Part shown: in pieces, positions 14,218 to 63,392 of the stretch
Numbering within the stretch: the stretch's first letter is position 1
How the letters are laid out: each line of letters opens with the position of its first letter
Source: Leptolyngbya sp. CCY15150
GTDB taxonomy: Bacteria > Cyanobacteriota > Cyanobacteriia > RECH01
DNA: 64,000 bases
Reading direction: 5' to 3'
Assembly (NCBI RefSeq): GCF_016888135.1
Contig: NZ_JACSWB010000278.1
Location: 248,001-312,000, forward strand
Notes under the pieces: model-generated
Database searches by the model: none
Seen by the model: the letters and a program-made list of their open reading frames with translations, nothing else
Told to the model about the DNA's origin: nothing
Position numbers and translations under genes: made by a program

Positions 14218-15354
14218 CTAGCCAAGGTGCTTTTCATAGATTCGATAGGTTTTATAGATCTGGCCACCGGTTGCCTCAATCAGCTTCCGAGATGGCATAT
14301 TGTCTTCATAAACCCAAGACAGTTCAGCCTTTTTGTAGGGCTTCCCTTTTTTGAAGCCGCCGGCCATGCCCAAGTATCCCAGTCCCAGAGGCACCATCTT
14401 ACGTCGATACTCGGGCAATGAACAGATGGCAATCACCCGCCCTTGGTCAATCTGACGACGATACCATAGGAATTTGAGGATTCCCAACCAGTTGAGCCGC
14501 CCGTTGACATGCTTGAGAGGGATGTTGTAGTCGGGAAATCCCATGAAAAAGCCCACCATCTCGCCGTTGTACTCCGCAATGGGAAACACATCTGGATCCA
14601 CTAGGGACTGAAGTTCCTTGGCATCATCGAGAAACTCCTCTAGGGTGCGCGGCGTAGAACTCCAATTGTTGGTAAAGGCTTTATTGAACAGGTGATAGAG
14701 CCCCACACAGTCTTCCTTGAAGCCCTCGCCTTTGGTGCGAATAGGACGAAAGGTGACCCCCGACTTGAGCGCCACGCGATAGCCTTTCTCAAAGCCCGCC
14801 GCCAATTGTTCCGGGAAGAACTCGTAGGCGTAGGCATCTTTAGCCTTCTCCCAGCCATCCCGCTCGATGAACTCGGGATAGTAGGCAGGATTGTAGGGCA
14901 TCATCACCTGGGGTGGGGTGTCAAAGCCATCTACCAAAAAGAGACAGTCATTGTGGGTCGAGAGGTTAATGGGCCCCCGCACCCGCGTCATGCCCTGCTG
15001 TCGCAGCCAGTCTTCAGCCGCCCGAAAGAGAGCTTGGGCGATCGCTTCCTCGGGCATACATTCAAAGTAGCCAAAGAGCCCAATCGCTTCGCCCTCCCGT
15101 TCAACTAACCGTTGGTTCACCGCCGCCACAATCCGGCCTACAACATCACCGTTTTGGATGGCAATCAAGGCCTGGAGCGTTCCATAGGTGCGAAAGATAT
15201 AGTCTGGCGCAAGCTGCTTGGCAATGCTGCTGCGGATGGGGGGCACCCAGTTGGGATCGTGGGCGTAGACCTTCGCCGGTAGATCGAGGAAGGCGTCTAG
15301 ATCTGCAGCGGTTTCGACGGGGCGGACGGTGAGATCGGGGGCAGTTTGAACCAT
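14218..15354 (-). CDS. GNAT-superfamily-like acyltransferase, hypothetical
   Basis: A 378-residue soluble protein. The N-terminal half has a GNAT-type pattern (VRPVETAADLDAFLDLPAKV, then ALIAIQNGDVVGRIVAAVNQ and MTRVRGPINLSTHNDCLFLV). The C-terminal half repeats an acetyltransferase-like strand-helix set (FPIAEYNGEMVGFFMGFPDY ... AELSWVYEDNMPSRKLIEATGG). Such double-GNAT proteins are widespread; their substrates are not established, and I infer only an acyl-CoA-dependent transferase. It precedes the SDR gene in the same direction. A MITE copy lies between it and the mscS gene. Confidence 0.8.
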   Translation of the reverse strand: MVQTAPDLTVRPVETAADLDAFLDLPAKVYAHDPNWVPPIRSSIAKQLAPDYIFRTYGTLQALIAIQNGDVVGRIVAAVNQRLVEREGEAIGLFGYFECMPEEAIAQALFRAAEDWLRQQGMTRVRGPINLSTHNDCLFLVDGFDTPPQVMMPYNPAYYPEFIERDGWEKAKDAYAYEFFPEQLAAGFEKGYRVALKSGVTFRPIRTKGEGFKEDCVGLYHLFNKAFTNNWSSTPRTLEEFLDDAKELQSLVDPDVFPIAEYNGEMVGFFMGFPDYNIPLKHVNGRLNWLGILKFLWYRRQIDQGRVIAICSLPEYRRKMVPLGLGYLGMAGGFKKGKPYKKAELSWVYEDNMPSRKLIEATGGQIYKTYRIYEKHLG

Positions 15355-15477
15355 AGGGTTGATAGGAGTTGACAGGGGATGACATAACTATCCGTTCAAA
15401 GCATAGGATAGGCTATGCAGTCCGGGCAACGTCTAGTTGGGTAGATCTAGGGGACGATCATGCCGGATTCAAGGGTA

Positions 15478-15614
15478 ATATCAAATCCGGTTGAAGGTTC
15501 ATAGCTGCACATCCTGCATTCGATCTCCCGCTTCGCTGCCCTCTTGCCAAGGGAGCTACAGACATCTGGGTACCACAGCATTGAATCAATAGTGTGCCTA
15601 ACCAGATTTGATAT
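15478..15614 (+). mobile_element. MITE-like element, copy 1 (137 bp)
   Basis: Terminal inverted repeats are ATATCAAATCCGGTT at the left and AACCAGATTTGATAT at the right (one mismatch). The interior aligns along its whole length with the reverse complement of 62592-62729, sharing blocks GCATTCGATC, GCTGCCC and ACAGACAT. There is no ORF, so it is non-autonomous and would need a transposase in trans. It ends 14 nt beyond the stop codon of the minus-strand mscS gene. Confidence 0.85.
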
Positions 15615-15628
15615 AGCTAGGTTTGATC

Positions 15629-17008
15629 TCACTCTAGAGGGAGATCTCGAAACGTCAGGGTGTAAATCTCCGTGGGCATTTCAATACCAACGGCCTGCAA
15701 TTTATCTTTGATCGCTTGGGCTGCATCAGAGGTAACCTGAAGGAATGATTGTTGCCTTGAATTAACCCAAAATCGCACTTTCAGATTGACAGTACTGGCT
15801 GCTAACTCTTGAACCAGAACTAGAGGAGCTGGCTCTGACTCAATTCCCTGAACCAGCATTAACGCCTCTAGAATTGCCTGTCGCACTGTATTCAGATCAG
15901 CGTCATAATCCACCCCCACCATCACGTCACTGCGCCGCACTGGAGAAGCCGTGTTGTTGATAATAGAGCTTTGAAACACCTGTTGATTGGGAATATAGAC
16001 CAACCGCCCGTCGTAGGTAATCATGGTTGTGGCTCGGAGTTGCACTTGCACAACGGTTCCTTCATAATCACCAATCACCACTTGATCGTTGATGCGAAAG
16101 GGCCGAGCTGCCAGCAGAATGACACCCGACATGTAGTTACTCAACACATCTTTAAGGCTAAAACCAATCGCAACACTGGTGAGCCCCAAGGCTCCGAGTA
16201 AGGCAGCAAAGTCTAATCCCAAAACCCCTAGGGCAATAATACTTCCCAGTACCCAAACCCCGCCGTAGCACAATCGCCCAATTAAAATTTCAGTGCTGCG
16301 ATCGCCCTCGGTTTCTTCTGCCCATAACAATCCTAAGCGTCGCACTCCCCTAGCGACTGTCCAGGTCACGCCAATAATGAAGAATGCTCCCAGCAACGAT
16401 GGCACCAAGTCAATTGTGCGGCGTACCAACTGACGTCCAGTTCCATCCAACCGCTGTAGGGCATCAACGGCTAGGTTAGGCTTTACCAGAACTTGATTCA
16501 GCCGATCGGCCCACTGTTGAGCTAACGTTTCGATGGTGACATCAAAATCCACAGCATCTTGCGACGTGACGGTCATCAGCACCCGGTTGTTGACCTTGAG
16601 CAGGGCCATCTGCCGAGATGGATCAAGCTGCACCGTGACTGGTTCAATTGAGTTAGGCTGATTCAACAGTCCAGCAATGCGGCGGCTAATGACGCGGGCG
16701 CGATCGGCAGCGCTCAACTCCGGCAAGCTGCCTACCTGAAGAACCGGCTGCCCTCGCACCAAGACATCGGCGAAGAATATCCCATCTTCCATCGTCTCGC
16801 TAGAAGGTTCTGTGGTTTCAGGGGATGTTTCAATGGGAAAAGAACTTGTACTCTCCTCCGGTATATCCTGTCCGTAAGTTGGCAGCCCTAAGCCAACGAA
16901 CACTAGGATGAGTAAAATAAGCTGAGCCGCTAAGTTTTCTGTGCCTATGAGGAGAGACACAGCGATAGTTCGCTTCTGATGGGGTGGGCGTTTGTTAGAG
17001 AGGTTCAC
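15629..17008 (-). CDS. MscS-family small-conductance mechanosensitive channel
   Basis: A 459-residue membrane protein with a GTG start. A signal-type hydrophobic segment near residues 25-45 (ending at PTYGQ) is followed by an extracytoplasmic domain of about 150 residues. Three membrane helices follow, the last being the pore helix with Gly/Ala packing (LLGALGLTSVAIGFSLKDVLSNYMSG, near 285-310, quoted in parts), then the MscS beta domain (FRINDQVVIGDYEGTVVQVQ, YIPNQQVF) and an alpha/beta C-terminus. It releases solutes on hypo-osmotic shock, which fits an organism with stpA. The signal peptide and soluble N-domain are typical of cyanobacterial members. Confidence 0.92.
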   Translation of the reverse strand: MNLSNKRPPHQKRTIAVSLLIGTENLAAQLILLILVFVGLGLPTYGQDIPEESTSSFPIETSPETTEPSSETMEDGIFFADVLVRGQPVLQVGSLPELSAADRARVISRRIAGLLNQPNSIEPVTVQLDPSRQMALLKVNNRVLMTVTSQDAVDFDVTIETLAQQWADRLNQVLVKPNLAVDALQRLDGTGRQLVRRTIDLVPSLLGAFFIIGVTWTVARGVRRLGLLWAEETEGDRSTEILIGRLCYGGVWVLGSIIALGVLGLDFAALLGALGLTSVAIGFSLKDVLSNYMSGVILLAARPFRINDQVVIGDYEGTVVQVQLRATTMITYDGRLVYIPNQQVFQSSIINNTASPVRRSDVMVGVDYDADLNTVRQAILEALMLVQGIESEPAPLVLVQELAASTVNLKVRFWVNSRQQSFLQVTSDAAQAIKDKLQAVGIEMPTEIYTLTFRDLPLE

Positions 17009-35698: not shown

Positions 35699-35723
35699 GC
35701 CAGGAATAAATCCAAAAAGAAAA

Positions 35724-35746
35724 CCCCGGAGCCAACGGCTCCGAGG
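35724..35746 (-). terminator. Terminator of the rpmH-DUF177 cluster
   Basis: CCCCGGAGCC (35724-35733) and GGCTCCGAGG (35737-35746) form a stem with one mismatch and an AAC loop. On the minus strand it is followed by TTTTCTTTTTGG, the classic layout of an intrinsic terminator. It lies between convergent genes. Confidence 0.85.
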
Positions 35747-35821
35747 TCTGAATCAGGGTGCATCTACCATTCCTTTCTACGGATCTAGGTGATCCCGTCC
35801 GGACTGTTCCCGAAAAACTCT

Positions 35822-60458: not shown

Positions 60459-61121
60459 GGAGAGCTGGTAGGCAGGGGCGATCGCCCAGGAAGACGAAGG
60501 GGACTGGGAATTCGCAAACGACTACGGTTGGGATGCTGACCGGGAAGCGATCGCTTTCTACAGGCAAACCGTTCTAGAGATATCTATCCTAGCGAAGGGA
60601 TCTGGATTAGGTTGATGAGACGGCTAACGGAAGCCAGTTAGGATAGCGATCGCCTCTAGCCAAGTAACGGGAGGATGCCTGGAGGTACCGATGACGCTGC
60701 CGCTGAATGGGTGGGTACTCTATATCTAGCGCCACTATACGAGAAAATCCTGGGGATCCGCAAGGGCGATCGCCAGCCACAACGTCAGCCTAGGCTTAGC
60801 TCAGGGTTCCTGTGGGGGCAATGACAATAGCGGTACGACGATGGGCATCCCTCCATCAAGATTCATCGACAAGTTCGCCCGAATCTCTACATATGGTAGT
60901 AAGCTAATGGGCACTTCTGACCATACTTTTCGCACCATACTTTTCGCACAGTGCTGATGAGATGGGGCGATCGCCTCTAGACCGTGAGCGCCCTAGGGTG
61001 GTTAAGATGTCTGCGGACTAGGGTACCCTCATGCTCTGGGCGATCGCTAAGCTGCTTGGGGGATCGCACAGGTGATCCACTCAGCCATCTCATCCGTCAA
61101 CAGAACCGTAGAGGACAGCAC
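60459..61121. other. dnaG-amidase divergent intergenic region, 663 bp
   Basis: No ORF is supported on either strand. HIP1 sites occur several times. A perfect 14-bp tandem duplication of CCATACTTTTCGCA lies at 60921-60948. The promoters of dnaG and the amidase gene must be here, but I cannot place them. Confidence 0.55.
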
Positions 61122-62468
61122 ATGGGACGTATTTTTATCTCGGCCGGTCATGGGGGGACAGACAATGAACTGCTCGACCCAGGCGTTGTTGTAGGCGACA
61201 CCACCGAAGCCCAAGAGATGATTCAAATTCGAGATCTGGTGGTTGCAGAGCTGCGATCGCGGGGTTTTGATGTGTTGGCGGTGCCTGATGACCTCGGTCT
61301 TGTGCAGTCGATTGACTGGATCAATGCCCGTGGACGCTTTGGTGATGTGGCGATCGAGATCAATGCCGATGCCTATACCAACCCGGAGGTGCGCGGGGCC
61401 AGCGTCTACCATATTGCCAACAACCAAGAGCGCCGTCGCCATGCCGAGCTGGTGCTGTTTGCCATGCTGCGCCGCTTGCCGGGCTATGTGAGTCGCGGAG
61501 CCCGCCCTGATACCACAACGGCTGTGGGGCGTTTGGCTTTTTGTCGATGGGTGGTCTTGCCCTCGTTGCTCATGCAGGTGGGGTTTCTCACCAATCCTGA
61601 GGATTTGCGCGTGTTGCAAACCCAGCGGAATGATGTGGCGCTGGGCATTGCTGATGGGCTGGCATCGTGGAGCCGCGCCCTCACCCAGGGCAGCACCCCT
61701 GATTCTAGCTATCCGCTCATTGATATTCAGCTCAACGGCTCACCCTACGGCGATCGCGGTATTTTGGTCAACGGTAATTCCTATATCCCGGTGGCGTTGG
61801 TGGATCAACTGGGAATTGACCTGTCGTCTGCTCCCGATGTGCGCCGGATCCAGCATCACAACATTGTGTATATCAAGGCGATTGACCTGCGGGATTTCAA
61901 CATTTCTGTGGGCTGGGAGAAAGAAACACGCACCGTGACCCTACGCTCGATTCTCACCATCTGCCCCGGTGCCTTAGATCGGATCATGGGCCATGGCAAT
62001 GTCCGAGACATGCAGTTGCTGATGTTTCTGAAAGCCAACAATGAAAATGTGGTAGAAACCTTTGCCAACCTGCCCAAATACTACCGAGAAGAGGGCAGCG
62101 TGGAGGGCGTCAACTACGACATCGCCTTTTCCCAAATGTGTCTGGAGACCAACTTTTTGCAGTTTGGCGGCGAGGTGTTGCCAGAGCAATATAATTTTGC
62201 CAGTCTGGCCAGCGCTAATGCTGAAGAGGTGGCGGCAACGTTTCCTAGCCAACGGGTGGGGGTGCGGGCCCATATTCAACACCTCAAGGCCTATGCCAGT
62301 CAGGAACCCTTGGTGTATGAACAGGTTGATCCCCGGTTTACCTTTGTCACTCGGGGGGTCGCTCCGCTGGTGGATCAGTTAAGTGGACGATGGTCGGCGG
62401 ATCCAGGCTATGGCAGCAAAATCATGGCAATTTTGAAGCGTCTCTATGAGTCAGCCGATCTACTTTGA
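61122..62468 (+). CDS. N-acetylmuramoyl-L-alanine amidase with C-terminal lysozyme-like domain (TftA-like)
   Basis: A 448-residue protein from the ATG at 61122 (GAGGA about 6 nt upstream); an upstream in-frame ATG would add a 46-residue leader with no signal. The amidase_3-type domain (about 1-185) has the metal-site region MGRIFISAGHGGTDNELLDP, VAIEINADAY and LLMQVGFLTNPEDLRVLQ. Then comes a copper-amine-oxidase-N-like segment (YIPVALVDQLGIDLSSAPDV) and a glucosaminidase-like end (YDIAFSQMCLETNFLQFGGE). This fusion recalls the cyanobacterial TftA that shapes tapered hormogonium ends; that identity is tentative. Confidence 0.8.
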   Translation: MGRIFISAGHGGTDNELLDPGVVVGDTTEAQEMIQIRDLVVAELRSRGFDVLAVPDDLGLVQSIDWINARGRFGDVAIEINADAYTNPEVRGASVYHIANNQERRRHAELVLFAMLRRLPGYVSRGARPDTTTAVGRLAFCRWVVLPSLLMQVGFLTNPEDLRVLQTQRNDVALGIADGLASWSRALTQGSTPDSSYPLIDIQLNGSPYGDRGILVNGNSYIPVALVDQLGIDLSSAPDVRRIQHHNIVYIKAIDLRDFNISVGWEKETRTVTLRSILTICPGALDRIMGHGNVRDMQLLMFLKANNENVVETFANLPKYYREEGSVEGVNYDIAFSQMCLETNFLQFGGEVLPEQYNFASLASANAEEVAATFPSQRVGVRAHIQHLKAYASQEPLVYEQVDPRFTFVTRGVAPLVDQLSGRWSADPGYGSKIMAILKRLYESADLL

Positions 62469-62591
62469 TGTCTAGTCATAGCAAAGCAGAGAAGTAGCTG
62501 ATCTACTCCTCCGCGTTGTTGGTTCATTGGTTCCCAAGTTATCGAGTCCCAAGACTATCTTGGCCTCGGGATGCGATCGGGACGATGTCAT

Positions 62592-62729
62592 ATATCAAAT
62601 CTGGTTAGATGCGCTGTTCATTCGAGGCCTTGTCAGCACCCGAATGTCTGTAACCCCTTTATGAAGGGGCAGCGCAGCAGGGGATCGAATGCAATCTCCC
62701 ACCATGATTCATCCAACCGGACTTGATAT
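62592..62729 (-). mobile_element. MITE-like element, copy 2 (138 bp)
   Basis: The left end is ATATCAAATCTGGTT and the right end AACCGGACTTGATAT. Its reverse complement aligns along the full length with 15478-15614. It has no coding capacity. The right terminal repeat shares its last base with the stop codon of the minus-strand YbaB/EbfC gene. No clear target-site duplication is evident beyond a possible TA inside the terminal repeats. Confidence 0.85.
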
Positions 62730-63079
62730 TACATTCCGGGCAGGTTTAAGCCGCCGGTGAGTTCTTCCATCCGCTCGCGCATGGTGGTGGTGGATTTCTC
62801 ATAGGCATCTTTCATCGCCGCCAAGACGAGGTCCGAGAGCATCTCTGCACCTTCATTGATGGCTTCAGACGTCACTTCAACCCGACGAGGTTCTTGGTTA
62901 CCGCTGAGGAAGACTTTGACTTGCCCGCCTGCCGAGGTTCCTTCAATTTCTAGCTCTTCTAGCTCTTGCTGCAGCCGTCGAGCGCCTTCTTGCACCTGTT
63001 GGGCTTTTTTGAACGCATCGGCAAGCTCTTTCATTTTGCCAAGACCAAAGCCGCCGCCAAATCCCTGTCCTTGCGTCAT
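62729..63079 (-). CDS. YbaB/EbfC-family nucleoid-associated protein
   Basis: A 116-residue protein from [20 protein letters not shown] (63079). It shows the family pattern: [59 protein letters not shown], and [20 protein letters not shown]. The N-terminal Gly/Gln-rich stretch replaces part of the usual start. The family binds DNA without strict sequence need and forms dimers. The reading frame ends one base inside a MITE terminal repeat. Confidence 0.92.
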
Positions 63080-63392
63080 AGTTCTCTCGTTACCCATTGT
63101 GTTGATCATAGTATGTGTCTCTGTATTGTTCAGGGGAGCGACGTGCTCATCCGAACATTCAGAGCCCTGCAACCCTTGACTTAGGAGTCGATGCTGTCGC
63201 GTCACCAGCTAGGGGCTAGAGGAAGCGATCGCTGCTGCCAACGTCAAGGAGCGGTTGCGGTAAAATTGTACTGCCAGGATCGATCAAAAGCTAACAGCAT
63301 CCCTAGAGACAAACGCTCCAATCGTTGATGCTCTTGGACAGTCCTGCCCTCTTATCTTAGCGGCTGTCGTGATCAATGCCCGCAAAAAACGG
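63080..63392. other. murB-YbaB intergenic region, 313 bp
   Basis: No ORF is supported. It holds the YbaB promoter side and the murB 3' flank. No hairpin with a T-run was found. Confidence 0.5.

Follow-up and report, generated by a model that had tools for sequence, protein, structure and literature searches.

The window analysed here, a 64-kb stretch of the genome of Leptolyngbya sp. CCY15150 (G000), contains two copies of a short element in opposite orientation. Copy 1 lies between a GNAT acetyltransferase gene (14218-15354, minus strand) and an MscS-type channel gene (15629-17008, minus strand), and copy 2 between the stop codon of ybaB/ebfC and the end of a tftA-model gene (60984-62468, plus strand). 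The latter gene scores 742 bits against the NCBIfam model TftA (hormogonium tapered terminus morphoprotein). Elsewhere in the window, positions 35716-35769 on the minus strand match the Rfam family NsiR1, nitrogen stress-induced small RNA (51.6 bits; cut-off 39). No third copy of the element was found within the 64-kb window; the contig holds a further one (G000:C278:236907-237045) some 11 kb beyond the window.

Table 1 Features of the two element copies in the window
Feature	Position	Strand	Basis or remark
MITE copy 1, 135 bp	15479..15613	+	Alignment and genome searches; TATC...GATA
Left terminal inverted repeat of copy 1, TATCAAATCCGGTT	15479..15492	+	Pattern search, 0 mismatches
Right terminal inverted repeat of copy 1, TATCAAATCTGGTT on the minus strand	15600..15613	-	Pattern search, 1 mismatch
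Left flank of copy 1, TAA, probable target duplication (TNA)	15476..15478	.	Sequence; TNA rule from other elements
Right flank of copy 1, TAG, probable decayed TNA partner	15614..15616	.	Inferred; duplication not intact
MITE copy 2, 136 bp, reverse orientation	62593..62728	-	Alignment and genome searches
Terminal inverted repeat of copy 2, TATCAAATCTGGTT on the plus strand	62593..62606	+	Pattern search
Terminal inverted repeat of copy 2, TATCAAGTCCGGTT on the minus strand	62715..62728	-	Pattern search
Target duplication of copy 2, TTA (plus strand)	62729..62731	-	Also the TAA stop codon of ybaB/ebfC (62729-63205, minus strand)
Second duplication of copy 2, decayed to ATA here	62590..62592	.	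Comparison with a congener, G002, which has TTA

Ends and interiors of the two copies

The first-pass annotation gave correct positions for both copies and described them as matching along their whole length. A global alignment bears this out, with 103 of 141 columns identical (134 ungapped). Without their terminal 15 bp, the interiors still align with a score of 69, compared with a shuffle mean of -23 (sd 9.4; maximum 9 in 500 shuffles). The end-to-end match of the copies is thus far beyond chance. Their divergence, about a quarter to a third, agrees with the earlier estimate that perhaps a third of the interior bases differ. The statement that the element has no ORF is a fair one, since copy 1 is spanned only by a mechanical 61-codon frame (15447-15632) without any support.

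The ends had been read as 15-bp terminal inverted repeats. The ends are present, but the repeats are really 14 bp, as the outermost A/T belongs to a flanking TNA target duplication. They are inverted as proposed but imperfect: their form is TATCAARTCCGGTT, the two ends of one copy differ, and the right end of copy 1 reads TATCAAATCTGGTT.

Internal blocks shared by the two copies had been suggested to be preserved signals, and this suggestion was not supported. The blocks are part of a master sequence common to all copies in the genus, covariation is slight, and in other cyanobacteria these ends surround interiors that are wholly different. In Oscillatoria sp. SIO1A7, for example, they flank palindromic repeats that are quite unlike those of the genus, and many of these belong to the GTAGGGGC...GCCCCTAC type. 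This 9.1-Mb genome (G390; L137-L171) has 349 exact TATCAARTCCGGTT ends, against none for the backwards control. Conversely, the 40-bp interior core of the genus (GATCCCCCGCT-TCGCTGCCCCCTTGNCAAGGGGGCT) recurs in a distant family within elements that have other ends (GTATCTGTTTAGCG...), and sometimes without those ends. That MITE-like family, distinct from the present one and with GTATCTGTTTAGCG ends and only the 40-bp core in common, was seen in G014 (L033, L037, L041, L045, L049, L056) and relatives. The simplest reading would be that other dispersed repeats have time and again come to lie between transposon ends. Because the same ends enclose unrelated interiors, the comparison suggests that the predicted transposase-binding ends are what spreads and that the cargo may be interchangeable.

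Dispersed copies and their target sites

To count copies we used a profile built from 14 of them. At E<=0.01 it detects about 34 in G000 and, in the congeners G001 and G002, 38 and 77; G003, the nearest genome outside the genus, has none. The further copies that the earlier note had asked for are thus present. When copy 1 is used as a DNA query against its own genome, 22 places including copy 1 are returned at E<0.01 and 29 places at E up to 1, and the genome-wide numbers for this genome rest on such searches. Matches to the end pattern exceed those to its backwards control (55 vs 11, 47 vs 5 and 89 vs 5). The copies in G002 are nearest to the consensus, up to 92-93%, and the latest activity of the family was therefore probably in G002. 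Nested within one G002 copy (L060:5476-5711) is a second small palindromic element, GTTGCTGAAT...TTCAGCAAC, and a GTTGCTGAAT-like start also stands beside copies in L059 and L068. All 17 own-genome copies tested fall outside reading frames of more than 109 codons, so the copies look intergenic.

The target duplication was analyzed in a paired-end scan of the genome collection at the element's spacing, which yielded 35 stretches from Oscillatoria sp. SIO1A7, Okeania, UBA11153 and DLM2.Bin15. Among these near-exact-ended elements, 29 of 35 have identical 3-bp flanks outside TATC...GATA, and all 29 are TNA (18 TAA, 8 TTA, 2 TGA and 1 TCA). Shuffling the right flanks gives identity in a mean of 13.2 elements and a maximum of 23, and a fourth flanking base is repeated in none of the 35. 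Several copies in the window's genus still keep the duplication (tca, taa, tga), and neither window copy retains a perfect one today. The 3-bp TNA duplication itself is well supported. A copy elsewhere in the window's genome (L039:1501-1639) is flanked by a 4-bp CTAG direct repeat, which is not TNA. The duplication abuts a stop codon in 3 of the 35 elements and in window copy 2, too few to claim a preference.

Orthologous loci provide an empty site. At the position of copy 2, the G001 sequence is GCATTACATC, with TTA unduplicated, and the interruption falls at the terminal repeats, as expected for an insertion; the element is also absent from the more distant G003. In G002 the site is occupied and flanked by TTA on both sides, and in the window one TTA is intact. 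The sharing of copy 2 with this congener and the decay of one duplication from TTA to ATA uphold the view that the insertions are old. Since the intact TTA is its stop codon (TAA on the minus strand), ybaB/ebfC was left whole by the insertion. We rejected a TA duplication, with the element starting from TCAA, because it predicts TNATATNA as the empty site and a single TTA is observed.

At the position of copy 1, the element is absent from G001, where the flanks are too diverged for a base-exact junction. G002 was rejected as an empty site for copy 1, as it carries a different insertion there, with a 638-codon histidine-kinase-like frame. Close to the right border of that frame (L254:356-2269) we noted an IS630-type-like end, TATCAAGCCCAATTAAG.

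IS630-type transposons with the same ends

Full-length transposons with these ends, another of the checks proposed earlier, were found in other cyanobacteria, and the own genome has broken copies only. Across cyanobacteria, IS630-family elements of about 0.9-1.2 kb possess the same ends and TNA flanks. A representative on the Stanieria plasmid AP017376 (L111:556-1703) is 1,148 bp long, with ends TATTAAATCCGTTTAATTGCCCATGATA and TATCAAATCCGTTTGAATACCCATAATTA and TAA on both sides. When multi-copy elements from six genomes were intercompared, likeness stopped at ends starting TATC, TACG or TACC. An automatic end search resolved 22 elements, with TNA on both sides in 22/22 and identical flanks in 16/22, a number slightly favoured by the settling of ties for identical flanks. 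Inverted matches in L201 and L207, which lack these ends, were set aside as chance.

The partner proteins contain Pfam DDE_3 and winged-HTH domains. Their C-terminal ORF matches NF033545 (IS630) with 113 bits (cut-off 100) and the N-terminal ORF with 93 bits, which by sequence places the partner transposase in the IS630 family.

The window's genome itself contains a 259-bp internally deleted element (L094:3002-3260), with ends TATCAAGTCGGGTTGAATGCACATGAT and TATCAAGTCGGAATGAATAACCATGAT, that retains the C-terminus of an IS630-type transposase. At E<=1e-6, 46 of 390 cyanobacterial genomes, this one among them, contain relatives of this C-terminus. Other broken copies in the own genome stop at contig edges, and every end of that group examined there is TNA-flanked. 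The own genome yielded no intact transposase with these ends, and in G002, with the youngest-looking MITEs, not even a broken one was found; the draft assemblies may hide one in either case. An end located before an IS630 gene in G000:C244 (L089:1083-1096) was rejected, as it is the coding end of a neighbouring large gene. In G000, G002 and Oscillatoria SIO1A7, the long elements delimited by paired ends contain no transposase in the pairs examined. Okeania SIO3I5 and Oscillatoria SIO1A7 have same-ended MITEs, and in both genomes a distance of about 30 bp separates IS630 remnants from a matching end. The similarity of the MITE to any single IS is limited to the ends.

Probable mobilization by an IS630-type transposase and alternative explanations

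The element is short, within the roughly 50-500 bp usual for MITEs, and lacks a transposase gene; it has terminal inverted repeats, dispersed copies, a TNA duplication with an empty site, and ends common to an autonomous transposon. The further copies, the same-ended full-length transposons and the empty site with its 3-bp duplication agree with the first-pass proposal of a non-autonomous transposon derivative. We consider it very probable that the element is a geneless, non-autonomous DNA transposon (MITE) of about 135-140 bp, moved by an IS630-family subgroup with a 3-bp TNA duplication.

Other explanations were weighed against the same data. Seen from the window alone, with just two copies in opposite orientation, the pair might reflect duplication of a chromosomal segment and not transposition. 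However, similarity ends at the terminal repeats, the roughly 34 copies are dispersed, and the empty site with its target duplication refutes this reading, whose probability is negligible. A functional role as a conserved structured RNA or regulatory element, incidentally repeated and only secondarily mobile, is also highly improbable. The element does form long base-paired folds, best in copy 2 (z -5.8), and has a central hairpin, CCCCTTGNCAAGGGG. However, the plus strand of copy 1 folds barely better than its shuffles (z -1.0), there is no Rfam match at the element, the element is absent from orthologous sites, and same-ended elements elsewhere have unrelated interiors. A consensus fold of 14 copies comprises 19 pairs, many of them broken, with an unfavourable covariation term of +0.67 kcal/mol, and selection for RNA structure was rejected on covariation.

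The mover could instead be a transposase of the IS5 family, IS1031 subgroup, with the likeness to IS630 ends incidental. Members of this subgroup have 3-bp TNA duplications as a hallmark. The duplication found here is of this kind, while TA is reported for IS630 (PMC2170065) and a Thermus survey gives a 2-bp duplication for the IS630-family ISTth6 (PMC6352166). However, the partner elements do not encode an IS5-type transposase: the proteins of the intact multi-copy elements that share these ends and the TNA flanks are of the IS630 family, and broken own-genome transposons with these ends carry an IS630-type C-terminus. An IS1031-type mover is thus largely refuted already, and we regard it as very unlikely. 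The 2-bp TA duplication that defines the IS630 family was not found either, as the MITEs, the full-length partners and the empty site all have TNA. The TNA duplication in company with IS630-family proteins marks a divergent subgroup rather than plain membership.

The MITE family described here is new, and its kind is well known. Its counterparts include MITEs whose proposed movers are IS630-family transposases, for example the pneumococcal RUP with IS630-Spn1 (PMC3049150). Like the present element, such MITEs are short, non-coding and multi-copy, with IS630-type-like terminal inverted repeats. They differ in their TA duplication, where the element here has 3-bp TNA, as well as in sequence family and host. 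Nezha of Anabaena variabilis (Zhou et al. 2008) is a cyanobacterial MITE whose proposed movers are ISNpu3-like elements (PMC3049150, PMC10969869), and by its description it resembles the present element in its proposed mobilisation by an IS via common ends. The genome scan returned no Anabaena or Nostoc records with the element's ends. Cyanobacteria also have very small mobile repeated elements (Elhai et al. 2008), which are multi-copy dispersed repeats (PMC3733652); compared by description only, the element here differs in having transposon ends and a target duplication. ISY100 of Synechocystis, in IS630/Tc1/mariner, shares with the partner elements an IS630-family transposase, imperfect terminal repeats of about 24 bp and a cyanobacterial host. 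In contrast to the duplicated TNA that flanks the partner elements, it inserts at TA and duplicates TA (PMC2170065).

We then propose a model for the spread of this MITE. A transposase of the IS630 subgroup would recognise TATCAARTCCGGTT together with some adjoining bases, such as TGAATGnnCATG on one side, and would mobilise the MITE in trans. By analogy with the chemistry of ISY100 and Tc1/mariner, the route would be cut-and-paste: the transposase would excise the element and join it to a TNA target site, which would be duplicated to 3 bp. The MITE itself may have originated when such a transposon underwent internal deletion and captured a different dispersed repeat. The family would have arisen from one master copy present in the genus ancestor, and its spread would have continued in at least one sister species. 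Most own-genome copies would now be old, with the matching transposon surviving here only as broken copies.

Because TA is reported for IS630 (PMC2170065), the TNA duplication is the least ordinary feature of this MITE family. Whether such a duplication is undescribed for IS630 is uncertain: we found no report of it in the literature, ISfinder lay outside the search, and novelty is not claimed. It is possible, though we lean slightly against it, that a widespread cyanobacterial IS630-family subgroup and its MITEs generate a 3-bp TNA duplication in place of the 2-bp TA that defines IS630/Tc1/mariner; if true, a transposase of the IS630 fold would cut with a different stagger. For this repeat family, which numbers tens of copies per genome in the genus, the analysis provides a sequence for the ends, a rule for the target and a probable mover, and the same ends occur by the hundreds in Oscillatoria SIO1A7. 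If TNA is indeed undescribed for an IS630-type group, target cutting in the IS630/Tc1/mariner superfamily would become directly testable.
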